64,000 bases of DNA. Source: Rahnella laticis (GTDB taxonomy: Bacteria > Pseudomonadota > Gammaproteobacteria > Enterobacterales > Enterobacteriaceae). A program made the position numbers and the translations under genes. The DNA is taken from NCBI RefSeq assembly GCF_015644585.1, contig NZ_JADOBI010000004.1, positions 62,001-126,000 on the forward strand. Direction: 5' to 3'. The notes beneath the pieces are model-generated. The model worked only from the letters and a program-made list of their open reading frames with translations. It had not been told where the DNA came from and made no database searches. The first letter of the stretch is position 1. Every line of letters starts with the position of its first letter. Positions 48,466 to 61,885 of this stretch are shown here, piece after piece.

Positions 48466-49557
48466 ATGAAAATCGGTGTCTTCATTCCTATCGGCAACAA
48501 CGGCTGGTTAATTTCTGAAACCGCGCCACAGTACAAACCGACCTTTGAGCTGAACAAAACCATCGTGCAGAAGGCGGAACACTATCATTTCGACTTCGCG
48601 CTCTCGATGATCAAACTGCGCGGCTTCGGCGGTAAAACCGAATTCTGGGAACACAACATGGAGTCGTTCACGCTGATGGCGGGCCTTGCCGCCGTGACCT
48701 CCCGCATCCAGCTTTACGCCACCGCCGCCACGCTGGTGATGCCACCGGCGATTGTGGCGCGCATGGCCGCCACGATTGATTCCATCTCCAACGGCCGTTT
48801 CGGCGTGAACGTCGTCACCGGCTGGCAGAAACCGGAATATGAACAAATGGGCATGTGGCCGGGCGACGACTATTTCAGCCGCCGTTATGACTATCTGACC
48901 GAATATGTCAGCGTCCTGCGCGACCTGTGGGGCACCGGCCACTGCACGCTCGACGGCGAATTCTTCAAGATGGACGACTGCCGCGTGAGCCCGCGCCCGC
49001 AGTCTGAAATGAAAGTGATCTGCGCCGGACAAAGCGACGCAGGCATGGCGTTCTCTGCTAAACACGCCGATTTCAACTTCTGCTTTGGCAAAGGCGTTAA
49101 CACGCCAACCGCGTTTGCGCCGACCGCCGCGCGCATGAAAACGGCGGCGGAAGCCGAAGGCCGCGACGTCTCCTCTTACGTGCTCTTTATGGTCATCGCG
49201 GATGAAACCGACGCCGCCGCCCGTGCCAAATGGGAACTGTATAAAGAAGGCGCCGATGCTGATGCACTGGCGTGGCTCACCGATCAGAGCAGCAAAGACA
49301 CCAAATCCGGTGCCGACACCAATGTCCGCCAGATGGCCGACCCCACGTCAGCGGTCAATATCAACATGGGCACGCTGGTCGGCTCCTACGCCAGCGTCGC
49401 CAGAATGCTTGATGAAATCGACAGCGTACCCGGCGCAGGTGGCGTCCTGCTGACCTTCGACGATTTCGTAGAAGGCATCGAAAACTTTGGCCGTTTCATC
49501 CAGCCATTAATGAAAACCCGCCAGCACATCGCAACGCAGCAGAAAGAGGTGGCGTAA
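48466..49557 (+). CDS. rutA: Pyrimidine oxygenase RutA
   Basis: A 363-residue FMN-dependent, luciferase-like oxygenase. It opens the uracil ring between N3 and C4 to give ureidoacrylate (peracid) with FMNH2 supplied by RutF. It starts [20 protein letters not shown], with [20 protein letters not shown] and [20 protein letters not shown], as in E. coli RutA. First gene of rutABCDFG; the stop overlaps the rutB ATG by one base. The sigma-54 promoter above implies nitrogen control. Confidence 0.97.
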
Positions 49558-50306
49558 TGAACATTGTTGAAAATCAGACCGTTGTCCGCCGCGAACCGAA
49601 AAACAGCGGCGAGGAAACCATTCTCACCGCGCGTCCGGAAGCCATTGCGTTTACGCCACAGCAAACGGCGCTGATTGTGGTGGATATGCAGAATGCGTAC
49701 GCCTCACAGGGTGGTTATCTGGATTTGGCCGGTTTTGACGTCTCCGCCACTGCGCCGGTGATCGCCAACATCAAAGTGGCCATTGCCGCCGCGCGCGCCG
49801 CCGGCATCAAAGTGATCTTCTTCCAGAACGGCTGGGACAACCAGTACGTTGAGGCCGGTGGTGCCGGCTCACCAAACTTCCACAAATCCAACGCGCTGAA
49901 AACCATGCGTAAGCGCCCGGAACTGATGGGTAAATTGCTGGCAAAAGGCGACTGGGATTACGACCTGGTGGATGAACTCCGGCCACAGCCGGGCGACATC
50001 GTGCTGCCAAAACCGCGCTACAGCGGATTCTTCAACACCCAGCTCGACAGCCTGCTGCGCAGTTACGGCATTCACCATCTGGTGTTTACCGGCATCGCCA
50101 CCAACGTGTGCGTGGAATCCACGCTGCGTGACGGTTTCTTCCTCGAATATTTCGGCGTGGTGCTAGAAGACGCCACCCATCAGGCTGGCCCGGAATTCGC
50201 GCAAAATGCGGCGATTTATAACATCGAAACGTTCTTCGGCTGGGTCTCCAGCGTCCGCAATTTCTGCGACGCCGTGGGTTATGACGCTAAACAAAACGCC
50301 GCATAA
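49557..50306 (+). CDS. rutB: Ureidoacrylate amidohydrolase RutB
   Basis: A 249-residue isochorismatase-fold hydrolase that cleaves ureidoacrylate to carbamate and aminoacrylate, releasing ammonium. Catalytic triad: Asp43 (VVDMQNAY), a Lys in [11 protein letters not shown] and Cys185 ([18 protein letters not shown]). The N-terminus is about 19 residues longer than in E. coli, shifting these numbers accordingly. Coupled to rutA by a one-base overlap (TAATG). Confidence 0.96.
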
Positions 50307-50332
50307 CGGCTTTATGAAGAGGAAACAGCAAT

Positions 50333-50719
50333 ATGCCTAAAAGTGCCATTATTCCGGCTGGCAGCGGCGTTCCGCTGGCACCGTTTGTTCCGGGAACGCT
50401 GGCCGACGGCGTGGTCTACGTCTCCGGCACACTGCCTTTTGATAAAGACAATAACGTCGTGCATCCGGGCGATGCCGCCGCGCAAACCCGCCATGTGCTG
50501 GAAACCATCAAAAGCGTGATTGAAACCGCGGGCGGCACAATGGATGACGTCACCATGAACTCGATTTTCATTACCGACTGGGTGAATTACGCCGCCGTGA
50601 ATCAGGTTTACGCCGAGTATTTTCCGGGCGAAAAACCGGCGCGGTTCTGCATTCAGTGCGGGCTGGTCAAACCGGGTGCGCTGATTGAAATCGCCACCAT
50701 CGCGCACATCGGCAAGTAA
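50333..50719 (+). CDS. rutC: 3-aminoacrylate deaminase RutC (RidA family)
   Basis: A 128-residue YjgF/RidA-family trimer-forming protein that speeds conversion of the reactive aminoacrylate in the rut pathway. Family motifs: [12 protein letters not shown] near the N-terminus and [20 protein letters not shown] with the conserved Arg and Cys at the C-terminal end. GAGGAAA precedes the ATG; 26 bases after rutB. Confidence 0.96.
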
Positions 50720-50760
50720 AACACCGGGATCCGTTCTCCTGAAGACCTTGAGGAAACATC

Positions 50761-51600
50761 ATGTATTACAAGGTATTGGGTAAGAATAATGCAGACGCCG
50801 AAACCGTAGTGCTTTCCTCCGGCCTCGGCGGTTCAGGCAGTTTCTGGCAACCCCAGCTGGCGATGCTGAGCGGGTATTTCCGCGTCATCATTTATGACCA
50901 GCACGGAACTGGCGTCAGCAAAGGCACAGCGCCCGCCGGTTACAGGATGGAAGATATGGCGGATGAACTCGCCGGGCTGCTCAACGAACTGGATATCACC
51001 CGCTGCCATCTGGTGGGGCACGCGCTCGGCGGCATTATTGGCCTGCATCTGGCACTGCGTTACCCCGCGCTGCTACAAAGCCTGGTGGTGATCAACGGCT
51101 GGGCAAAGCTCGACAACCAGACGCGCCGCTGCTTTGAAGTCCGCCAGAATTTACTGCTCAACAGCGGCGTCGATGCCTACGTACAGGCACAACCGCTGTT
51201 TCTGTATCCGGGCGACTGGCTGTCGGCCAACGACGTATTACTTCAGGAAGAGCGCCAGCATCAGGTGACGCATTTTCAGGGAATGGAAAATTTGCTTCAC
51301 CGATTACAGGCGCTGATGAATTCCGACCTGACCCAAACGCTCGGGCAGGTGATCGCGCCCACGCTGGCGTTCAGCTGCAAAGATGATTTGCTGGTGCCGT
51401 GGATGCGTTCTGCCGATCTCGCCGAACGCCTGCCGAACGGCGAACACACACAAATGCTGTACGGCGGTCATGCCATGAGCGTGACCGACCCGGAAACGTT
51501 TAACCCGATTTTACTGGAATGGCTGCAACGGCATTCATCGCAAAAACCTGCCGCGCCTTCCCATCGCCTGCCCACGGAGACAACATGGCCGAAACATTAA
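50761..51600 (+). CDS. rutD: Putative aminoacrylate hydrolase RutD
   Basis: A 279-residue alpha/beta-hydrolase protein that speeds release of ammonia from aminoacrylate. The nucleophile elbow reads GHALGG: the usual catalytic Ser is Ala, as I recall in E. coli RutD, so a standard serine-hydrolase mechanism is unlikely. Acid and His remain ([19 protein letters not shown]). The C-terminus overlaps rutF by 16 bases. In E. coli rutE comes next; here rutF follows directly. Confidence 0.95.
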
Positions 51601-52103
51601 CCGCTACGCCAGCCGTTGAAAAACAGGCGTTCCGCGATGCAATGGCGCATCTCGGTTCTGCCGTTAACATCATCACCACCGACGGCCCCGGCGGTCGCGC
51701 GGGCTTTACCGCATCCGCCGTGTGCAGCGTCACCGACTCACCGCCAACCCTGCTCGTTTGCCTGAACCGCTCGGCGTCGGTGTATCCGGCCTTTACCGAA
51801 AATCAGGTGCTGTGCGTCAACACGCTGGCTGACTGCCATGAATCGCTGTCCAATTTATTTGGTGGAAAAACGCCAATGGAACAACGCTTTGAAGCCGCCG
51901 AATGGTCATCCCTTTCCACCGGCTCACCCATTCTCACCGATGCGCTGGTCTCGTTTGATTGCAAAATCACGCAAGTCACCCGCGTCGGCACCCACGATAT
52001 TTTGTTTTGCGAAGCCGTTGCGATCACCCGCAATGACGAACGCCACGGACTGGTGTATTTCGACCGCCGCTATCACCCGCTGATGCGGCAGTCAGCCTGT
52101 TAA
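51585..52103 (+). CDS. rutF: FMN reductase RutF
   Basis: A 172-residue flavin reductase (NADH:FMN) that feeds reduced FMN to RutA. The HpaC-like fold is shown by [40 protein letters not shown] and VFYFDRRYH-type end ([13 protein letters not shown]). Start: ATG 51585 with ACGGAGA upstream; it lies inside the rutD 3' end (16-base overlap), showing coupling. The rutE gene normally found before rutF is missing. Confidence 0.95.
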
Positions 52104-52126
52104 CTCATCTGAAGGTCAAATTAAGA

Positions 52127-53476
52127 ATGGCTAATACTTCCTGGTTTCCAAAGTGGCGTAAAAGAGAAGGCAATCTGGATGGCGCCGTTATTGCGCCGGA
52201 CGAACGGCTGCCGTTAGGGCCGACGGTGATTATGGGTCTGCAACATACCGTCGCCATGTTCGGCGCGACGGTATTAATGCCGCTGCTGATGGGGTTTGAC
52301 GCCAACATGGCGATCCTGATGTCCGGCATCGGCACCCTGCTGTTTTTCCTGGTGGTCGGCGGACGCGTGCCGAGTTACCTCGGGTCGAGCGCGGCGTTTG
52401 TCGGGCTGGTGATTGCGGTGACCGGCTACAGCGGCCACGGCGCGAACCCGAATATCGGCGTCGCACTCGGCGGGATTATTGCCTGTGGCGTCATTTATAC
52501 GCTGATTGGTTTTGTGGTGATGGCCGTCGGTACGCGCTGGATTGAACGCCTGATGCCGCCGGTCGTGACCGGTGCGGTGGTGATGGCAATTGGTCTGAAC
52601 CTCGCGCCGATTGCCATTAACAGCGTCTCGGCGTCGTCGTTTGACAGCTGGATGGCGGTGGTCACCGTGCTGTGTATTGGCTCGGTGGCCGTTTTCACCC
52701 GCGGACTGGTGCAGCGTTTACTTCTGCTGCTCGGGCTGGTGGCGGCGTATCTGATTTATATGCTGGTCACAAACGTCATGGGGCTGGGCGCACCGGTGGA
52801 TTTCACCGCCGTCGCGCAGGCGCCGTGGTTTGGCCTGCCGACTATCACCACGCCGGTGTTCAGCACCCACGCGATGCTGATGATTGCGCCGGTGGCCGTG
52901 ATTCTGGTGGCGGAAAACCTCGGGCATATTAAAGCGGTCGCGGGTATGACCGGTAAAAATCTCGATCCGTACATGGGCCGCGCGTTTGTCGGCGACGGGC
53001 TGGCAACATTACTGTCGGCCTCTGCGGGCGGAACCGGCGTGACGACCTACGCGGAAAACATCGGCGTCATGGCGGTGACAAAAATTTATTCCACGCTGAT
53101 TTTCGTCGCTGCTGCCATTGTTGCCATTGTGTTGGGCTTTTCGCCCAAATTTGGTGCACTGATCCACACCATTCCCGGTCCGGTATTGGGCGGCGCGTCG
53201 ATTGTGGTGTTCGGATTGATTGCCGTTGCCGGTGCGCGCATCTGGGTACAAAACCAGGTGGATCTGGGTCTTAACGGCAATCTCATCATGGTTGCGGTCA
53301 CGCTGGTACTGGGCGCAGGCAACTTTACCCTGAGTCTGGGCGGCTTCAGCATGGGCGGTATCGGCACGGCAACGTTTGGCGCAATTTTGCTGAACGCCTT
53401 CCTCAGCCGCAGCAAACAGGTAAAAACGCAGCCGGAAATAAAAACTGGCACAGAAGCTGCATTAAAAGATCACTAA
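52127..53476 (+). CDS. rutG: Pyrimidine permease RutG (NCS2 family)
   Basis: A 449-residue, 14-segment nucleobase transporter for uracil and thymine uptake. NCS2 features: LGPTVIMGLQHTVAMFGATV near the start, then ILVAENLGHIKAVAGMTG and FVGDGLATLLSASAGGTGVT, GPVLGGASIVVFGLIAVAGA. Last gene of the rut operon, ended by a strong terminator at 53517-53564. Confidence 0.96.
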   Translation: MANTSWFPKWRKREGNLDGAVIAPDERLPLGPTVIMGLQHTVAMFGATVLMPLLMGFDANMAILMSGIGTLLFFLVVGGRVPSYLGSSAAFVGLVIAVTGYSGHGANPNIGVALGGIIACGVIYTLIGFVVMAVGTRWIERLMPPVVTGAVVMAIGLNLAPIAINSVSASSFDSWMAVVTVLCIGSVAVFTRGLVQRLLLLLGLVAAYLIYMLVTNVMGLGAPVDFTAVAQAPWFGLPTITTPVFSTHAMLMIAPVAVILVAENLGHIKAVAGMTGKNLDPYMGRAFVGDGLATLLSASAGGTGVTTYAENIGVMAVTKIYSTLIFVAAAIVAIVLGFSPKFGALIHTIPGPVLGGASIVVFGLIAVAGARIWVQNQVDLGLNGNLIMVAVTLVLGAGNFTLSLGGFSMGGIGTATFGAILLNAFLSRSKQVKTQPEIKTGTEAALKDH

Positions 53477-53516
53477 CGACCTCAGTTTCTCCTTAGCTCA
53501 TCATTTTTGATGATCG

Positions 53517-53564
53517 CCAGCGGTTATCCGGTCCACCCGTCCGGATTAGCCGCTGGTTTTTTTC
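53517..53564 (+). terminator. rut operon terminator
   Basis: A long interrupted hairpin (CCAGCGG...CCGG 53517-53531 with CCGG...CCGCTGG 53541-53556) is followed by seven T residues. It separates the rut and ABC-monooxygenase operons. Confidence 0.93.
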
Positions 53565-53725
53565 TTTCTGCACCTCACACATTCCCACATTGCAGCTAAG
53601 TAATGCGAAATTCCTTCGTTCACCTCCCCTTTAAATTGGTTTGTTATGGAACCAGCACTTTCGTTCTATATGAATAAAAAGTGATTCATCTGCCAGACAT
53701 CGCCAAAAATAAAAAGGGTCTCACT

Positions 53726-55366
53726 ATGCACATTCTTCGCCGGAAAAACGCGGTCACACGCGCACTGGCTTTAGGGGTATTGATCACCAGTTCTTCCGCC
53801 GTTTTTGCCGCCGATCCAACACCGGTTCAGGGCGGAACGCTGGTTTATCTCGAACAACAGGCGCACACCAATTTATATCCTCCGGCCGGTGGCTTTTATC
53901 CGAACGGCGGCATCCTCAATCAGATCACCGACAAACTGACCTATCAGAACCCTAAGACGCTGGAAGTCGAACCGTGGATTGCCGAGTCCTGGAGCTTCAA
54001 CGCCGATAAAACCGAATACACTTTCAAACTGCGTCCGGGCGTGACCTTCTCCGACGGCACGCCGCTTGATGCCAACGCCGTGGCGAAAAACTTCGACACC
54101 TACGGGCTGGGCAATAAAGAACGCCATCTGCCGGTTTCCGAAGTGATTAACAACTACGACCACAGCGAAGTGATTGACCCGCTGACCGTGAAGTTCTACT
54201 TCAAAAAATCCTCGCCGGGCTTCCTGCAAGGCACGGCGACCATCGGCTCCGGCCTGGTGTCACTGAGCACGCTGGACAGAAATTTTGATGCGCTGGGCGA
54301 TGCGACGCACATCATCGGTTCCGGCCCGTTCGTGGTCAGCAAAGAAACGCTCGGTCGTGAAGTCGATCTGACGGCGCGCAAAGATTACAACTGGGGGCCG
54401 AAAAACCTCAAACAGCAGGGCCGCGCCAATCTCGACGGCATCAAAGTGATCGTTACCGGCGAAGACAGCGTGCGTATCGGCGCGCTGCTGGCCGGTCAGG
54501 CTGATTTCATCCGTCAGGTTCAGGCGTATGACGAGAAACAGGCCAAAGACCAGAACTTCCCGATTTATGCCGCGCCAACTAAAGGCGTGAACGACAGCAT
54601 TTCGTTCCGCCCGGACAACGCTCTGGTGTCTGATCTCAAAGTCCGTCAGGCGCTGCTGCACGCCACCAACAGCAAACAGGTGGTCGATACGCTGTTCTCG
54701 CCAAACTATCCGCAGGCCACCTCCGTCATCGCCAAAACCGCCGCCGGTTACGTGGATCTGAGCAACAAACTGACGTATGACCCGACGCTGTCGAAAAAGC
54801 TGCTGGATGAAGCAGGCTGGAAACCGGGCCCGAACGGCCTGCGCCAGAAAGATGGCAAAACGCTGTCGCTGACCATTTATGAATCCCTGCCGCAGCCGCA
54901 GAACAAAGAAGTCTTGCAGCTGGTTTCGCAGCAGTGGAATCAGGTCGGCGCGAAGCTGAACATTCTGGCCGGTGATGCGGGCAGCCGCGTGGCGGACAAC
55001 CTGGATCCGGAAAAAACGCCGGCGAACGTGGTGGAAGTCGGCCGCGCCGATCCGGACGTCATCAAAAGCTCCTTCTACCCGACCAACCGCGATGCGTTAC
55101 TGCAAAAAGGTGGCCTGAGCAGCAAGGTGAAAAGCTTCCGTGACGACAAGCTGAATGATCTGCTGGTGGCGATTTCAGCCGAAGTGGATCCGAAAAAACG
55201 TCTGGCGCTGGCCGGTGACGTGCAGAACTACCTGCTCGATCAGGCTTACGTGATCCCAATTTTCGAAGAGCCGCAGGTCTTTGCCGGTGCGCCTTATTTC
55301 AAAGGCGTGAGCTTCGAAGCCGTTGGCCGTCCGAGCTTCTACGGCGCATGGCTTGAAAAGCACTAA
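53726..55366 (+). CDS. ABC transporter substrate-binding protein (family 5, KPN_01854-like)
   Basis: A 546-residue periplasmic solute-binding protein of the peptide/nickel family. Signal peptide (RALALGVLITSSSAVFAA, cut near FAAD); then GGTLVYLEQQAHTNLYPPAG, WIAESWSFNADKTEYTFKLR and VRQALLHATNSKQVV. It most resembles the set named after Klebsiella KPN_01854, found with luciferase-like monooxygenases (recalled, not searched). Substrate unknown. Start: ATG 53726 has AAGGG upstream; a GTG at 53681 would add 15 residues ahead of the signal. First gene of a seven-gene operon. Confidence 0.88.
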   Translation: MHILRRKNAVTRALALGVLITSSSAVFAADPTPVQGGTLVYLEQQAHTNLYPPAGGFYPNGGILNQITDKLTYQNPKTLEVEPWIAESWSFNADKTEYTFKLRPGVTFSDGTPLDANAVAKNFDTYGLGNKERHLPVSEVINNYDHSEVIDPLTVKFYFKKSSPGFLQGTATIGSGLVSLSTLDRNFDALGDATHIIGSGPFVVSKETLGREVDLTARKDYNWGPKNLKQQGRANLDGIKVIVTGEDSVRIGALLAGQADFIRQVQAYDEKQAKDQNFPIYAAPTKGVNDSISFRPDNALVSDLKVRQALLHATNSKQVVDTLFSPNYPQATSVIAKTAAGYVDLSNKLTYDPTLSKKLLDEAGWKPGPNGLRQKDGKTLSLTIYESLPQPQNKEVLQLVSQQWNQVGAKLNILAGDAGSRVADNLDPEKTPANVVEVGRADPDVIKSSFYPTNRDALLQKGGLSSKVKSFRDDKLNDLLVAISAEVDPKKRLALAGDVQNYLLDQAYVIPIFEEPQVFAGAPYFKGVSFEAVGRPSFYGAWLEKH

Positions 55367-55382
55367 CAGGCAGGAGTGAATC

Positions 55383-56342
55383 ATGAACCGATACGTTAGC
55401 GGTCGTTTTGGGCAGGCTTTGCTGGTGTTGTGGGCGGCGTTTACCGTCTCCTTCATTCTCCTGCAAGTGCTGCCGGGCGATGCCATTCTGATTAAATTCC
55501 AGAACCCGGACATGGGGCTGAGCCCGGCGCAAATCGCCGATATGCGCGCGGCCTACGGCGCGGATGTGCCGCTGGTGCAGCAATATCTGCATACACTGGG
55601 GAATTTCCTGCGCGGGGATCTGGGCTATTCGATTCAGGCTGGCGTACCGGTCACTGAATTACTCAGCAGCAACTTTCCGCCGACGCTGCGGCTGGCGCTG
55701 ATGGGCTTCGCACTCGCCGCCGTGGTGGCTTTTGCGCTGGCGTTTATCTCCAGCCTGCTGCATTTCGGCTGGCTGAAAAACCTGTTGCAGTCGGTGCCGT
55801 CGCTGTTTATTTCCATTCCGACCTTCTGGCTCGGCATCGCACTGATTCAGTTTTTCTCTTTCCATCTGCGCTGGATCCCGGTGATCAATCCGGGGGAATG
55901 GGTCGGGCTGATTTTACCAGTGGTAACGCTGGCCGTGCCGATTTCCGCACCGCTGGCGCTGATCCTGATCCGCAGCATTGATCAGGTGCAGACCCAGCCG
56001 TTCGTCGCCGTCGCCCGCGCCAAAGGCGCCAGCCGCAGCGGCGTGCTGTGGCGGCATGTGGCGCGCAATGCCCTGCTTCCGGTGCTGACGATCGCCGGCT
56101 TGCTGTTTGGCGAACTGATCGCCGGGGCGCTGATCACCGAAACGGTATTTGGCCTGAACGGACTCGGGCAACTGACGCAGCAGGCGGTGAACAATCAGGA
56201 CGTCGCGGTTTTACAGGCGATTGTGGTGATTTCCGCCGCCGCGTTTGTCGGCATCAATTTACTGGTCGATTTGCTTTATCCGCTGCTTGATCCGCGCCTT
56301 AAAGCTAACGCCTCGAAAAACACAAAGGGAGCCACCGCATGA
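55383..56342 (+). CDS. ABC transporter permease 1 (DppB/OppB type)
   Basis: A 319-residue inner-membrane permease with about six helices. The N-terminal signature (FGQALLVLWAAFTVSFILLQ, LPGDAI) and the EAA loop region (FVAVARAKGASRSGVLWRHV, AGALITETVFGLNGLGQL) are those of OppB/DppB/GsiC. It lies 16 bases after the binding-protein gene and overlaps the second permease by 4 bases (ATGA). Confidence 0.9.
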   Translation: MNRYVSGRFGQALLVLWAAFTVSFILLQVLPGDAILIKFQNPDMGLSPAQIADMRAAYGADVPLVQQYLHTLGNFLRGDLGYSIQAGVPVTELLSSNFPPTLRLALMGFALAAVVAFALAFISSLLHFGWLKNLLQSVPSLFISIPTFWLGIALIQFFSFHLRWIPVINPGEWVGLILPVVTLAVPISAPLALILIRSIDQVQTQPFVAVARAKGASRSGVLWRHVARNALLPVLTIAGLLFGELIAGALITETVFGLNGLGQLTQQAVNNQDVAVLQAIVVISAAAFVGINLLVDLLYPLLDPRLKANASKNTKGATA

Positions 56343-57202
56343 GCAGCTTACCGCTGGGTAAAAGCACGCTTTCCCTGCCCGCCACACAGCGCCGCCGCTG
56401 GAAACCGGCCCGTTTACAGCCGGGGCTGATCATCGCCTGGCTGGTGATCGCGACCGTGATTTTATGGGCGATCGCGCCCGGCTGGTTTACCGGTTACAGC
56501 GGCACCGAAGGCATCGCGGGCGCGCAGCGTCTGGCACCGCAGGCCGGTCACTGGCTGGGCACCGATCAGCTCGGCCGTGACGTGTACGCCCGCATCGTTT
56601 ACGGCGCGTCGCATTCACTCTCCGGCGCACTGGTCGCCGTGGCGCTCGGGCTGGTGTTCGGCACCGCATTAGGGCTGGCAGCCGGTGCAAGCGGCGGCAT
56701 TGTTGACGCCATTGTCATGCGCATCAACGACGTGTTGCTGTCGATTCCCGGCCTGTTGTTGTCGCTGAGCGTCATCATTTTGCTCGGCTTCGGCACGGTT
56801 CACGCGGCGATTGCCGTCGGGGTCACCTCCGTCGCCAACTTCGCCCGCCTCGCCCGCGCCGAAGTGGTTTTGGTACGCCACAGCGATTACGTCGAAGCGG
56901 CCTATGGCAGCGGCGGCACCTTCTTCTCGATCCTCTGGCGGCACATTCTGCCGAACTCGCTGACCTCGGTCATCGCCTTCTCGGCATTGCAATTTGGCAG
57001 TGCGATCCTGGCGATTTCCACCCTGAGTTTCCTCGGTTACGGCACACCGCCGCCGACGCCGGAATGGGGGTTGCTGATTGCCGAAGGCCGTAACTACATT
57101 TCAACCGCCTGGTGGCTGACCACCTTCCCCGGCGTCGTTGTGGTGCTGGTGGTGCTTTCCGCTAACCGCATCAGCCAGTCATTGCGCAGGAGAACACGAT
57201 GA
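56339..57202 (+). CDS. ABC transporter permease 2 (DppC/OppC type)
   Basis: A 287-residue permease with about six helices. After a basic N-terminus come the OppC/DppC blocks GHWLGTDQLGRDVYARIVYG, ARLARAEVVLVRHSDYVEAA and STLSFLGYGTPPPTPEWGLL. Pairs with permease 1 to form the importer channel. Overlaps neighbours by 4 bases on each side, so translation is coupled. Confidence 0.9.
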   Translation: MSSLPLGKSTLSLPATQRRRWKPARLQPGLIIAWLVIATVILWAIAPGWFTGYSGTEGIAGAQRLAPQAGHWLGTDQLGRDVYARIVYGASHSLSGALVAVALGLVFGTALGLAAGASGGIVDAIVMRINDVLLSIPGLLLSLSVIILLGFGTVHAAIAVGVTSVANFARLARAEVVLVRHSDYVEAAYGSGGTFFSILWRHILPNSLTSVIAFSALQFGSAILAISTLSFLGYGTPPPTPEWGLLIAEGRNYISTAWWLTTFPGVVVVLVVLSANRISQSLRRRTR

Positions 57203-58818
57203 GCACACAGGCGATTTTGAATAACCACGCCGCACCCGTTCTTGAGCTGGATAATCTGACGATTGCCTATGACGGCAAAGCTGTCGTCCACAACGTCTCA
57301 TTTTCCATTAACGCCGGAGAAGTGCTGGCGCTGGTGGGTGAATCCGGTTCAGGTAAAACCACGACCGCGCAGTCGATTATCGGCCTGCTGGCGGAGAACG
57401 GTCATATCGAACAGGGCGAAATCCGCCTGAACGGCACCGACATCAGCCAGTGGTCGCAGCGCCGCCTGGATGCCCTGCGCGGCGCACGCATCAGCCTGAT
57501 CCCGCAGGACCCGACCAGTTCTCTGGATCCGGTGAAAACCATCGGTTCACAGGTTGCCGAAATTCTGGATATCCACCAGCGTCTGCCACGTGTTCAGCGC
57601 GATGCCCGCGTGGTGGAACTGCTGACCCGCGTCGGCCTCACGCACCCGGAACAGCGCGCGAAACAGTATCCGCACGAGCTTTCCGGTGGCATGAAACAGC
57701 GCGTGCTGATTGCCATTGCCATTGCGCTGCAACCGGCGCTGATCATTGCCGACGAGCCGACCAGCGCGCTCGACGTCACGGTGCAAAAACGCATTCTGGA
57801 TTTGATTGACGATTTGCGCCGCGAATCCGGCACTGCCGTTTTGCTGGTCACGCACGATCTGGCGATTGCCGCCGAACGCGCCGACCGTTTGCTGGTGTTT
57901 CGCAACGGCAAAGTGCAGGAACAGGGTGTAACGGCGGAAGTGCTGAACGCACCGAAAAGCGAATACACCCGCCAGCTGTTTGCCGACGTCCCTGCCCTTT
58001 CAGGCCGCCATCGCGCGCATATTGCCGCCGTCGCAGAACCGGTGCTGGTAGTCGAAAATGTCACCCATGATTTCTCACTGGGCGGGAAACATCAGGCGGC
58101 ATTCCGCGCTGTTGATAACGTCTCGTTCAGCATTCCTCGCGGCACCACACATTCTCTGGTCGGCGAATCCGGCTCGGGTAAAACCACGCTGGCGCGCATT
58201 CTGCTCGGTTTCCAGAAACCGGACAGCGGCCGCGTACTGATCGACGGCGAAGACATCACGCGCCTCAAAGGCGAAGCGCTGCGTCAGGTGCGCCGTAAAA
58301 TCCAGCTGGTGTATCAGAATCCGTTCGCCTCGCTCGATCCGTCGCAGACCTTGTTCAGCGTAATTGAAGAACCGCTGCTGAACTTCGAAAAAATCCCGTC
58401 AGCAGTGCGCCGTGATCGCGTTCTGGATATCGCCCGCCGCGTGGCGCTGCCGGAAGAACTGCTGGGCCGCAAACCGCGTGAGCTTTCCGGCGGCCAGCGT
58501 CAGCGCGTGGCGATTGCCCGCGCGCTGATCCTTGAACCGAAAGTGCTGGTGCTCGACGAAGCGACTTCGGCGCTCGACGTCACCGTACAGGCGCAAATTC
58601 TGACCCTGCTTCAACAGCTTCAGGATTCACTCGGCCTCACCTATTTGTTTATCTCGCACGATCTGGCGACCGTCCGGCAAATCTCCCACAGCGTCTCGGT
58701 ACTCAACCGCGGGCAACAGGTGGATTCCGGCAACGTGGAAGACGTGTTTGCGCTGCCTTCCAGCGATTACACACGGCAGCTGATTGATGCGATCCCCGGC
58801 CGCCACCGCGCCGCCTGA
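57199..58818 (+). CDS. ABC transporter fused dual ATPase (DppDF/GsiA type)
   Basis: 539 residues with two complete ABC ATPase domains. Domain 1 (about 8-265): Walker A GESGSGKTTTAQ, signature ELSGGMKQRV, Walker B ALIIADEPTSALD. Domain 2 (about 280-535): Walker A GESGSGKTTLAR, signature ELSGGQRQRV, Walker B VLVLDEATSALD. Both look active. It powers the two permeases as an importer, like GsiA or YejF. It begins with CAGGAGA just upstream and overlaps the permease gene by 4 bases. Confidence 0.93.
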   Translation: MSTQAILNNHAAPVLELDNLTIAYDGKAVVHNVSFSINAGEVLALVGESGSGKTTTAQSIIGLLAENGHIEQGEIRLNGTDISQWSQRRLDALRGARISLIPQDPTSSLDPVKTIGSQVAEILDIHQRLPRVQRDARVVELLTRVGLTHPEQRAKQYPHELSGGMKQRVLIAIAIALQPALIIADEPTSALDVTVQKRILDLIDDLRRESGTAVLLVTHDLAIAAERADRLLVFRNGKVQEQGVTAEVLNAPKSEYTRQLFADVPALSGRHRAHIAAVAEPVLVVENVTHDFSLGGKHQAAFRAVDNVSFSIPRGTTHSLVGESGSGKTTLARILLGFQKPDSGRVLIDGEDITRLKGEALRQVRRKIQLVYQNPFASLDPSQTLFSVIEEPLLNFEKIPSAVRRDRVLDIARRVALPEELLGRKPRELSGGQRQRVAIARALILEPKVLVLDEATSALDVTVQAQILTLLQQLQDSLGLTYLFISHDLATVRQISHSVSVLNRGQQVDSGNVEDVFALPSSDYTRQLIDAIPGRHRAA

Positions 58819-58849
58819 GTCAGCACATGAAAAAGAAAAGAGGGACATT

Positions 58850-59926
58850 ATGAGCAGCAAACGTCTTGGGTTTTTCACCCGACTTCTGGATAACACCAGC
58901 GCGCAGGAACGTTACCGGCTGGCGACCGAGCAAATTATTCACGCCGAGCAGCTGGGTTTTGACTCCGCATGGGTCGCGCAGCACCATTTTCACGAAGCGG
59001 AAGGCGGTCTGCCCGCACCGCTGGTTTTCCTTGCACAGGTCGCGGCGCATACCCGCTTTATCCGTCTCGGCACTGGCGTGATTACGCTGCCGATGGAAAA
59101 TGCGCTGCGCGTGGCAGAAGACACCGCCGTGCTGGATTTACTTTCCGGCGGGCGGCTTGAAATCGGGCTGGGTTCCGGCGGCACGCCGTCGTCATTTCTG
59201 CCGTTCGGCTTTGAAAGCAGCGAGCGCGGCGCGGTGTTTAGCCATAATCTGCAAACCCTGCTGACCGCCTGGCGCGGCGAACCGCTGGCAGGCACCGATA
59301 ACCGGTTGTATCCGGCGGCACCGCATCTGGAAAAGCGCGTCTGGCAGGCCACATTCTCGGTTGACGGCGGCGCACGTGCCGGTAAATCCGGCGACGGGCT
59401 GATGCTTTCGCGCACCCAGCCACGCCCGGCGAATGCGCCAGACCTGCGCCTCGACGAACTGCAAAACCCGATTATCGATGCCTATCTCGACGCACTGCCG
59501 GAAGGCGTTGCACCGCGAATCATGGGCTCACGCACGGCGTTTGTGACAGAAAACGGTGACGAAGCCCGCGAACTGGCGCAAAAAGGTTTACGCCGTCAGG
59601 CCGAAAATCACCGGGCCAGCGGACAACTAGTTCAGGGCGATACGCTGGACGATTACATCCGCGCCTTTGACGTGCATCTCGGCAGCGCGGAGCAGGTCAC
59701 CGCCACGCTACAGGCCGACACCGCGCTGGCCCGCGTCACCGATCTGGCGTTTCAGGTGCATTCTATCGATCCGCCGCATCCTTACATTTTACGTTCTATT
59801 GAACTCATCGCGCGTCACGTTGCGCCCGCCCTCGGCTGGGTTCGCCGCACGCCGCAGCGCCGTGTTTCCACTTCTTCCGCCGACCCTACGTTCTCAAAGG
59901 CTGCATCTGCACAGGACAACTTATGA
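58850..59926 (+). CDS. Luciferase-like FMN-dependent monooxygenase (KPN_01858-type)
   Basis: A 358-residue LLM-class TIM-barrel flavoprotein. It opens RLGFFTRLLDNTSAQERYRL and carries GFDSAWVAQHHFHEAEGGLP and LGTGVITLPMENALRVAEDT, then LEIGLGSGGTPSSF. Related enzymes oxidise small organic substrates with FMNH2 and O2; no flavin reductase is in this operon, so RutF or another must supply FMNH2. It resembles the family named after Klebsiella KPN_01858 (recalled). Start: ATG 58850 with GAGGGA; an in-frame start at 58784 lies inside the ATPase gene. Confidence 0.87.
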   Translation: MSSKRLGFFTRLLDNTSAQERYRLATEQIIHAEQLGFDSAWVAQHHFHEAEGGLPAPLVFLAQVAAHTRFIRLGTGVITLPMENALRVAEDTAVLDLLSGGRLEIGLGSGGTPSSFLPFGFESSERGAVFSHNLQTLLTAWRGEPLAGTDNRLYPAAPHLEKRVWQATFSVDGGARAGKSGDGLMLSRTQPRPANAPDLRLDELQNPIIDAYLDALPEGVAPRIMGSRTAFVTENGDEARELAQKGLRRQAENHRASGQLVQGDTLDDYIRAFDVHLGSAEQVTATLQADTALARVTDLAFQVHSIDPPHPYILRSIELIARHVAPALGWVRRTPQRRVSTSSADPTFSKAASAQDNL

Positions 59927-61032
59927 CCACTTATTCGACTGACCTGCTGGAAAAACTGGCTGAAATCGCGCCGTCCTCTGAACTGAAACAGGCACGCGAC
60001 ACCCGCGACGCCGCGACCCGCCACGCGCAAGGCAGCTATGATGCGCTGTTTACCGAACAGGACGGCGTGGATTTCACGCTGGCCGAGCGTCTGCGTTTAG
60101 CGCAAAACGTCGCGCGCTGGCACGGCGATTCACAGCTCACCAATCACTATTCCGAGCGTTTGCAGGATTTGCCGGACATCGACGAAACCGCCCGTCTCGA
60201 CGCCGCGCTGACTCACGGCGAACGCCTGAGTTACAAGCCCGCCAGCGCCACCCCTGCGCATTTGCAGGCACTGAAAAAAGCCGGCTGGTCGGTGGATGCC
60301 ATCGTCACGATTTCGCAGCTGATTGCTTTCGTCAGTTTCCAGAGCCGCGCGCTGCGCAGCTACCGTCTGATTGGCGGTAAACCGGTGGAAAACGCCAGCA
60401 ATAAACCGGTCGGCGCCGCGTTCTGGCGCACTGAACCGAACACCCACAGCGGCCGCGACGCGCCGCAGGCATTCACGCAAGAAGAGCTTGGCTGGGAACC
60501 GTGGATCCCGTCCAAAAGGCTGGAAGAATTTGATGAAGCCCAGCAGGCGATTCTGGCGAAATTCGGCCATACGGATTCCGACTATTTCCGCCTGTTAGGC
60601 CGTAACCTGCCGGTGCTTGAGCAACGCACGCTAACCGACAAAGGCATTTTCTACACCTCCGGCGGCCTGCCGCGCAAAGAGCGCGAACTGGCGGCCACCG
60701 TGGCGAGCAAAATCAACGGCTGTATTTACTGCGCGTCGGTGCATTCGCGTAAAGCCAGCCAGCTTTCCAAACAAACCGAAGACGTTCAGCGGCTGATCGA
60801 CATCCCGCCGGGCGGCATTCTCAGCAAGGAACAATCCCCGCGCTGGCAGGCTGAAATTGATTTCGCCGCCGCGCTCTCCGCCACGCCGCCGGTCGCCTCG
60901 CCGGAACACATTAAGGCACTGCGCGATCAGGGTCTGAACGAACTGGAAATCGTCGATCTGGCGCAGTCTGCGGCGTTCTTCGCCTGGGCAAACCGCCTGA
61001 TGTTAACGCTGGGAGAACCGTTTAATGACTGA
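59923..61032 (+). CDS. Fused CMD-domain / AhpD-type alkylhydroperoxidase protein
   Basis: 369 residues in two halves. Residues about 1-185 resemble the CMD-domain family of Agrobacterium Avi_7170 and hold no cysteine (KPASATPAHLQALKKAGWSV, ISQLIAFVSFQSRALRSYRL). Residues about 190-369 resemble the peroxidase family of Avi_7169 and have the AhpD redox centre C267-x2-C270-x3-H274 (NGCIYCASVHSRKAS). In the related loci I recall these as separate genes, so this is probably a fusion. It may remove peroxide or handle the product of the monooxygenase. Overlaps neighbours by 4 and 8 bases. Confidence 0.82.
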   Translation: MTTYSTDLLEKLAEIAPSSELKQARDTRDAATRHAQGSYDALFTEQDGVDFTLAERLRLAQNVARWHGDSQLTNHYSERLQDLPDIDETARLDAALTHGERLSYKPASATPAHLQALKKAGWSVDAIVTISQLIAFVSFQSRALRSYRLIGGKPVENASNKPVGAAFWRTEPNTHSGRDAPQAFTQEELGWEPWIPSKRLEEFDEAQQAILAKFGHTDSDYFRLLGRNLPVLEQRTLTDKGIFYTSGGLPRKERELAATVASKINGCIYCASVHSRKASQLSKQTEDVQRLIDIPPGGILSKEQSPRWQAEIDFAAALSATPPVASPEHIKALRDQGLNELEIVDLAQSAAFFAWANRLMLTLGEPFND

Positions 61033-61885
61033 TTCACAGACTTCTCAACGCCCGGTTCCGCAGCTCGATCACGTGGTGATTAACGTCGCCGAACAGCTTA
61101 ACGGTGCCGAGCAGCAGTTCCGTCGTCTCGGTTTCCAGCTCACACCGCGCGGTCATCACTCGCTTGGATCCAGCAATCATCTGGCGATTTTCGGCGAAAA
61201 TTATCTGGAACTGCTCGGCTTCGAACCGGGCAATGCGCATACGCGTAAAGATCTCTGGCAGGCTCCGCTCGGCCTCACCGGTCTGGTGTGGAAAACGCAG
61301 AATTCGAACGCCGTGTTTGATCATCTGCAACAGCAAAACATTGCGGGTTCGGCACCGGCAGAATTCTTCCGCCCCGTGGCGCTTAACGACGGCACCTCGC
61401 CCAATGCCCGGTTCCGCACGGTCCCGCTGGCCGCCGACCGCGTGCCCAATGGCCGCAGTTTCTTTTGCCAGCACCTGACCCCGGAACTGGTGTGGCGCAC
61501 CGAGTGGCAAAACCACCCGAACGGCGTCGCGGATATCACCGGTTTTGTGATTTCCGCCGCCTCCCCGCAGGCCGCCGCGAAAGTGTACGGCGAACTGTTC
61601 GGCGCAGAAGCCTTACAGACGAATGCTGAAGGCGTGACTTTGCGCGCCGGTCGCGCAACCGTCCGGTTTGTGACGCCACAACAGGCGCAGGCCGAGTTTG
61701 GGATCGTGCCCGAGGGGGAAAACGGGAGTGCGCGGATGGTCGGATTAGAGTTTGCGACCCGGTCGCTGGATGCGGTGCGCAATAGCCTGCGCGTGGGGGA
61801 AATTTCGTTTAGTGACTTAACCCATCGGGTTTTGGTTCGCGCAGCTGATTCGCTGGGAGTGGCGGTGAGATTTAGCGAAGAATAA
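61025..61885 (+). CDS. VOC (glyoxalase-like) protein, last gene of the ABC-monooxygenase operon
   Basis: 286 residues with two VOC-type modules, of the Glyoxalase_3-like kind: PQLDHVVINVAEQLNGAEQQ, GSSNHLAIFGENYLELLGFE, and VADITGFVISAASPQAAAKV with VGLEFATRSLDAVRNSL. His of LDHVV and NHL and Glu of YLELLG could hold a metal. It may act as a lyase, isomerase or hydrolase on the product of the monooxygenase. Its start overlaps the CMD gene by 8 bases. Confidence 0.83.
   Translation: MTDSQTSQRPVPQLDHVVINVAEQLNGAEQQFRRLGFQLTPRGHHSLGSSNHLAIFGENYLELLGFEPGNAHTRKDLWQAPLGLTGLVWKTQNSNAVFDHLQQQNIAGSAPAEFFRPVALNDGTSPNARFRTVPLAADRVPNGRSFFCQHLTPELVWRTEWQNHPNGVADITGFVISAASPQAAAKVYGELFGAEALQTNAEGVTLRAGRATVRFVTPQQAQAEFGIVPEGENGSARMVGLEFATRSLDAVRNSLRVGEISFSDLTHRVLVRAADSLGVAVRFSEE

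Follow-up and report, generated by a model that had tools for sequence, protein, structure and literature searches.

A conserved monooxygenase–CMD–AhpD core with an exchangeable transporter: an operon of Rahnella laticis and its possible role in organosulfur scavenging

The subject of this report is an operon of seven genes at positions 53726-61885 (+ strand) of a 64,000-nucleotide stretch of the Rahnella laticis genome (contig NZ_JADOBI010000004.1), which is the window analysed throughout. It belongs to a gene set that is already known, curated and well conserved, without an assigned role. A luciferase-like monooxygenase and its CMD and AhpD partners form a fixed core of this set, and the transporter beside them can be exchanged. 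Together with sulfur-related genes close to a minority of the loci, this suggests, as a tentative reading to which we would give slightly less than an even chance, that the operon takes up a small, anionic, amino-acid-like sulfur compound and breaks it down by oxygenation. The transporter swap and the sulfur-related neighbours narrow the substrate to something that one growth panel could test, and our results call into question the sole published function found for this enzyme family. If the reading is right, common plant-associated bacteria would possess a new way of breaking carbon–sulfur compounds.

Seven open reading frames (ORFs), each with an ATG start, fill the operon, and NCBIfam and Pfam profile matches place every product in a family. 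In order, they encode a family 5 solute-binding protein (SBP_bac_5; 53726-55366; TIGR04028, 869.4 bits, cut-off 468.5), two ATP-binding cassette (ABC) permeases (55383-56342 and 56339-57202; both BPD_transp_1), a fused dual ABC ATPase with two ABC_tran stretches (57199-58818), the luciferase-like monooxygenase (LLM; 58850-59926; TIGR04027, 566.8 bits, cut-off 412.9), a CMD plus AhpD-type fusion with an intact Glu-Cys-Cys-His set (59923-61032; TIGR04029, 194.3 bits, cut-off 100.75; TIGR04030, 306.3 bits, cut-off 233.15) and a two-module VOC protein (61025-61885), which has no match among NCBIfam models and Pfam Glyoxalase_3 (105.1 bits) as its sole family match. All four models TIGR04027-TIGR04030 are exceeded above their curated cut-offs within one operon. 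These models are NCBI-curated hypothetical equivalogs named after KPN_01854/KPN_01858 and Avi_7169/Avi_7170, which bears out the resemblance to Klebsiella and Agrobacterium sets noted in the initial annotation of this DNA, made from sequence alone. The same annotation had the coordinates, the seven family calls and the tight packing right—the junction spacing is, 5' to 3', +16, -4, -4, +31, -4 and -8 bases, so that overlaps of 4-8 bases occur at four of the six—and, as it had noted, neither a flavin reductase nor a regulator is found among the seven genes. No mention of the TIGR04027-TIGR04030 accessions, Avi_7169 or KPN_01854 was found in the literature searched.

Conservation of the set was judged in a scan of a genome collection, in which 462 relatives of the monooxygenase came up; the top 80 of them are the loci counted below, and the closest of these relatives are from Rahnella. 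Leaving VOC aside, 78 of the 80 loci keep all six genes on one strand and in unchanged order; the two exceptions, L018 and L037, are cut short by a contig end ahead of the binding-protein gene. Because this order is kept so consistently, the clustering is not a matter of chance. The hosts comprise Enterobacterales, Rhizobiales, other Alphaproteobacteria and the actinobacterium Klugiella, with CMD and AhpD fused in the enterobacterial loci and separate in alphaproteobacterial loci where they could be assigned. The VOC gene behaves differently from the other six, being detected by tblastn in 14 of 80 loci. In 13 of these it adjoins CMD/AhpD (seven Rahnella, two Ewingella, Pantoea coffeiphila, Erwinia JUb26 and two Inquilinus, the last two at 28-30% identity), and in L034 it lies elsewhere in the locus. 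One Rahnella locus (L001) is without it, and at least one locus, L010, stops before any VOC gene could show. The neighbourhood comparison that the initial annotation had proposed thus comes out in favour of its gene set for six genes and against it for the VOC gene, and what had been described as a fixed unit of seven is better seen as six genes plus an optional one. On a wider scale, TIGR04027 is above cut-off in eight of 299 genomes drawn evenly from the phylum and TIGR04028 in four, all within those eight. As a side observation, one of the 14 named control genomes has TIGR04028 above cut-off and none has TIGR04027 above cut-off.

The exchange of the transporter is seen in genomes that carry the monooxygenase with other import genes. 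Four of the eight TIGR04027-positive phylum genomes have no TIGR04028 above cut-off, and in family f41, which we guess to be Bradyrhizobium-like, nine of 198 genomes exceed the TIGR04027 cut-off. All nine share one gene order on one strand: MetQ, monooxygenase, CMD, AhpD, LivK-like, fused LivHM-like, LivG-like and LivF-like. The MetQ/NlpA-family binding protein scores 268.6 bits against TIGR00363 (cut-off 228.85), and the LivK-like and LivG-like proteins, the two that were tested, fall below their equivalog cut-offs. The MetQ match is split into two pieces in L203, and L207 may be the same sequence as L112 in another assembly, since the identities are exactly equal throughout. As eight of the nine genomes belong to one genus, we count the swap as a single event. 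In genome G139 (L114), the ABC transporter beside the cassette is another one, similar in general type and encoded on the opposite strand. Because the transporter is exchangeable, with family 5 genes in one context and MetQ/LIV genes in the other, we conclude that monooxygenase, CMD and AhpD are the fixed core.

Genes of sulfur metabolism recur near a minority of the loci. The neighbour search covered 50 genomes drawn from those of the 80 loci, a choice of our own that left out Rahnella and several near-duplicates. At least seven of these genomes (four Sodalis-like, two Rouxiella and one Telmatospirillum) have MetQ-family genes no more than about 10 kb from the monooxygenase, with 11 such genes near the operon among the matches listed; in a clade test on the same listed matches, MetQ is observed in 3 of 21 clades against 0.29 expected (P 0.003). 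The PSE exporter family (PF03601) is within 10 kb in three of 50 genomes, that is, in 2 of 21 clades against 0.09 expected (P 0.004), and of four long, divergent members of the family (open frames of 470-488 residues), three lie beside the operon and the fourth (G309) on another contig. The available text of one source connects PSE with sulfite derived from 3-sulfolactate (PMC11582611). Outside the 50, the Serratia bockelmannii locus L024 carries, downstream, an SsuD (619.4 bits, cut-off 518.2), an NtaA/DmoA enzyme (568.1 bits, cut-off 279.7) and MetN-like (below cut-off), MetI-like and MetQ-like genes; its sulfur genes begin 2.3 kb past the CMD gene, with a regulator-like ORF between them on the opposite strand. 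In all, 10 of the 80 loci have MetQ, NtaA/DmoA, SsuD or PSE-type genes within reach, one of them (L041) by a partial SsuD-like match at the locus edge. NtaA/DmoA neighbours were set aside as evidence in their own right: such enzymes are above cut-off in 39 of the 50 genomes, and given this frequency, their presence close to the operon in the Rouxiella group is by itself of little weight.

Several other arrangements were seen in and around these loci. L019, L031 and L032 have a second ABC transporter behind the operon and an NtaA/DmoA-type monooxygenase on the other side, and the diverged TIGR04028-like binding protein of this second transporter scores 251.8 bits in L019, below cut-off. In L116 and L117 (G146 and G058), two TIGR04027-related monooxygenase genes that score below cut-off stand side by side, in the vicinity of a large receptor-like ORF and of ORFs similar to the SsuD and NtaA of L024; this is perhaps another organosulfur cluster. 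ORFs of about 630-660 residues in L148, L141 and L137 match the SsuA-family model, possibly as regulator–binding-domain fusions, and near their start resemble, by eye, the regulator-like ORF at 12238-14229 of L024. A Bradyrhizobium genome paper has SsuD and TauD as its subject, as far as its available text goes (PMC10708946).

The catalytic residues are strongly conserved in an alignment of 91 sequences (the 80 loci, the window and ten further loci, with L203 left out). The monooxygenase residues His45-His46, Arg11, Arg126, Ser187 and Arg188 are invariant, and the His-His motif at 45-46 is presumably luciferase-like. In the AhpD domain, Glu, both Cys and His are kept in 91 of 91, and the window domain has the spacing Glu-x11-Cys-x2-Cys-x3-His, which is that of AhpD. 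Arg11, Arg126, Ser187, Arg188 and His254 are the five residues proposed for PCX02514, the Klebsiella enzyme of PDB 8K74 (numbering is offset by one, so that His253 becomes His254), and of these His254 is a histidine in 24 of 91 homologues. Three of the invariant arginines are placed in the pocket in the available text of the 8K74 paper (PMC11354265), and such a pocket would suit an anionic substrate.

Upstream, the window contains at 48466-53476 ORFs that we take to be rutA, B, C, D, F and G, with no rutE between D and F, and the initial annotation had noted that the operon directly follows rut, which brings a flavin reductase, rutF. The adjacency is real in the window, where the ORF read as rutG stops at 53476, 249 bases upstream of the operon, and probably does not amount to a link. 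An ORF assigned to rutG by its similarity to the one in the window stands ahead of the operon in 8 of the 80 loci, all Rahnella, a few non-Rahnella loci offering little or no upstream sequence for this comparison. The sequence separating rutG from the operon contains a hairpin with a run of seven T behind it (53515-53563, + strand), which from its folding and position is a likely intrinsic terminator; for the stretch 53470-53575, which includes it together with another, smaller hairpin, the folding energy is -34.6 kcal/mol (z -6.15, with none of 200 shuffles as stable), and a simple terminator scan of the region did not report the 53515-53563 hairpin. Beyond it, a footprint at 53592-53649 is common to other genera that show no rut genes there. 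Since the hairpin and T-run intervene and the footprint is shared with rut-less genera, we consider the operon a separate transcription unit; coupling to rut was rejected, rutF is not specifically linked to the operon, and the association is probably incidental.

The footprint has two parts. The first (53592-53622, + strand), of the type TAGC/TTGC...ATTCCTTCGTTCA and shared with other Enterobacterales, is a putative regulator site, and the second (53630-53649, + strand), a block TTTAAATTGGTTTGTTATGG conserved across genera, is a possible core promoter in which a consensus scan found no sigma-70-like match. A matrix built from ten operon promoters, with sites picked by eye or pattern beforehand, scored its own members at 15.9-27.6 when each was left out, and the highest score among 232 control promoters was 12.4. 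Applied to 34 sulfur-gene promoters, it gave 15.6 for E. coli cysD, above all 232 controls, and p 0.047 for E. coli cysJ. The site upstream of cysJ was found in 14 of 14 genomes (two weaker cysJ-like loci were left out), and a matrix made from it, scored against dinucleotide shuffles on operon promoters of 16 groups, gave Fisher values of 5e-4 (width 18) and 1e-5 (width 24), with L034 the highest-scoring promoter; on 60 control promoters, 12% and 13% were below p 0.1. As a pointer to CysB, the resemblance of the operon promoters to the cysJIH upstream site is suggestive only.

From the gene order, conservation, catalytic residues, transporter swap and minority co-localisation with sulfur families, all directly observed, we infer a substrate class, reaction, step order, reductase and mode of regulation. 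The binding protein and ABC transporter would bring in a small, anionic, amino-acid- or peptide-like organosulfur compound. A general reductase (SsuE, RutF or Fre) would supply reduced flavin mononucleotide (FMNH2) to the monooxygenase, which would oxygenate the compound next to the sulfur and free the sulfur as sulfite, sulfenate or thiol. A reactive peroxy, sulfenyl or aldehyde product would be reduced or isomerised by the CMD/AhpD protein, and the VOC enzyme may add one further step in some lineages. The freed sulfur would enter cysteine by a CysB-controlled route or, where a PSE-type exporter is present, leave as sulfite or sulfate. Import followed by flavin-dependent oxygenation, as initially proposed, is the natural reading and fits the six-gene order and the invariant His-His and arginines; the VOC step is no constant element of it, as 14 of the 80 loci have the gene. 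The points that suggest sulfur are the transporter swap, the MetQ and PSE neighbours, L024, the cysJIH-like promoters, the arginines and a Klebsiella pneumoniae proteome in whose available text KPN_01858 and TauC are both higher under iron limitation (PMC7194016), a rise that fits a sulfur or an iron link alike. A bolder version of the sulfur reading, possible although we lean against it, is a new sulfur route of plant- and soil-associated bacteria in which a luciferase-group monooxygenase of neither SsuD nor NtaA type, with a CMD/AhpD reductase, would make up a portable core plugged into family 5 or MetQ/LIV transporters.

A good deal weighs against a role in sulfur scavenging. No MetQ, NtaA, SsuD or PSE family is within reach in 70 of the 80 loci; amino acids without sulfur are also substrates of MetQ and LIV transporters; the pocket arginines may bind the flavin phosphate instead; and the best 25 of 26 models for the window enzyme include neither SsuD nor NtaA. 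The clade tests are approximate, having been run after the neighbours were noticed, with clades assigned by name and treated as independent, and the two PSE proteins tested (66.9 and 68.4 bits) are below the YeiH model cut-off of 232.6. Promoter evidence is similarly mixed. The footprint was not seen in 5 of 16 groups (Sodalis-like, Pectobacterium, Brenneria, Dickeya and BIGb0383), and no site of its type matched at ssuE, sbp, cysP or tauA-like promoters, a comparison that drew on 10 of 24 SsuA-family loci and 14 of 14 loci of a second set. The E. coli cysD match is not conserved, being missing upstream of cysD in 14 other genomes, in most of which a coding frame ends just before the gene. The cysJ comparison was chosen after the sequences had been seen, and the cysJ-like site, present in some genera, falls short of significance in Rahnella (p 0.40 and 0.27). 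The CysB consensus is described as very weak in the available text of its source (PMC11329422). No sulfur phenotype came up in the literature search.

The same machinery could instead handle a sulfur-free amino-acid, opine or peptide derivative as a source of nitrogen or carbon, a C-N or C-H bond being oxidised beside a carboxylate. Family 5 binding proteins carry peptides and opines, the matches of the window protein include DppA, AgaA and MoaA, the LIV and MetQ transporters of the swapped loci take amino acids, and the 70 loci without a sulfur neighbour speak for it too. We nonetheless find this alternative unlikely, if a serious one, because MetQ and exporter neighbours are above chance in the clades tested and because sigma-54 control was rejected: the sigma-54-like TGGCACAGAAGCTGCA at 53446-53461 (10/11 match) lies inside the rutG 3' end, before the terminator-like hairpin, and recurs in seven Rahnella loci probably because the stretch is coding, while the sole other match of at least 9 is in L034 and no other group reaches the Rahnella level.

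Two further alternatives concern quite different substrates. A metal chelator or aminopolycarboxylate, resembling ethylenediaminetetraacetate/nitrilotriacetate or a metallophore, that is imported and oxidatively degraded under iron limitation would fit the positive pocket and the rise of KPN_01858 (PMC7194016), and NikA and CntA are the closest solved binding proteins by sequence, with NikA at the top of a fold search. This reading is improbable in view of the binding protein itself, which reaches 163.5 bits against a NikA model (TIGR02294) cut-off of 393. NikA Arg137, which we take to be the arginine holding ligand carboxylates, aligns to no arginine in it. Fur control was likewise rejected: with one or two promoters per group scored in 16 groups, no Fur-like match came up to 14, the 99% control level, and the highest, 13 in Rouxiella, equals the 95% level. 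The available main text of a Klebsiella chromate RNA sequencing study names no monooxygenase (PMC8195247). As for the initial statement that no substrate was defined, one has in fact been published for a close homologue, since 8K74, which the window protein matches with 464.9 bits over 324 residues, is described as a poly(acrylic acid) monooxygenase on the basis of a product dependent on reduced nicotinamide adenine dinucleotide phosphate (NADPH), loss of polymer mass, binding by isothermal titration calorimetry and mutants (available text of PMC11354265). That the window enzyme cleaves this polymer is nevertheless very hard to credit. The same text gives a kcat of 0.00214 per second and states that NADPH alone among the cofactors supported the reaction, which did not run with FMNH2 (PMC11354265), behaviour unlike that of the superfamily; a cytoplasmic enzyme beside a small-solute transporter would be unlikely to meet a long polymer; and the proposed active histidine varies, while the other four proposed residues are invariant. 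In our opinion, the polymer is a promiscuous or mistaken substrate, and we doubt that it reflects the native role.

Set beside known systems, the operon shares general logic with several. With the alkanesulfonate system SsuEADCB, it has in common binding-protein-dependent ABC import and a luciferase-superfamily monooxygenase, and differs in binding-protein class, monooxygenase subfamily, the CMD/AhpD partner and the lack of its own reductase; it does not belong there, as TIGR03565 is not among the best 25 of 26 models for the monooxygenase and the SsuA family is not among the nine models matched by the binding protein, which is SBP_bac_5. YxeK of Bacillus subtilis is, we assume, of TIGR03860 (NtaA/DmoA) type, and TIGR03860 is not among the best 25 of 26 models for the window monooxygenase either. 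The YxeK pathway for S-(2-succino)cysteine (2SC; scm) resembles the operon, in the available text, in pairing ABC import with a flavin mononucleotide monooxygenase acting on an amino-acid thioether (PMC9706529), and differs in that the seven genes of the window, which include no acetyltransferase or deacetylase, are not a 2SC set. By its NikA-model score, the binding protein is likewise no member of the NikA-type nickel/metallophore importers. PCX02514 of Klebsiella sp. PCX falls in the same monooxygenase family and, as far as its source is available, is published with poly(acrylic acid) and NADPH, a comparison of the enzyme alone, outside its genomic context. Finally, the operon resembles the TIGR04027/04028/04029/04030 set (KPN_01854, KPN_01858, Avi_7169 and Avi_7170) in carrying all four models above cut-off in one operon, and is set apart within it by an extra VOC gene and by the CMD-AhpD fusion, an Enterobacterales trait where the alphaproteobacterial proteins, when assigned, are separate.

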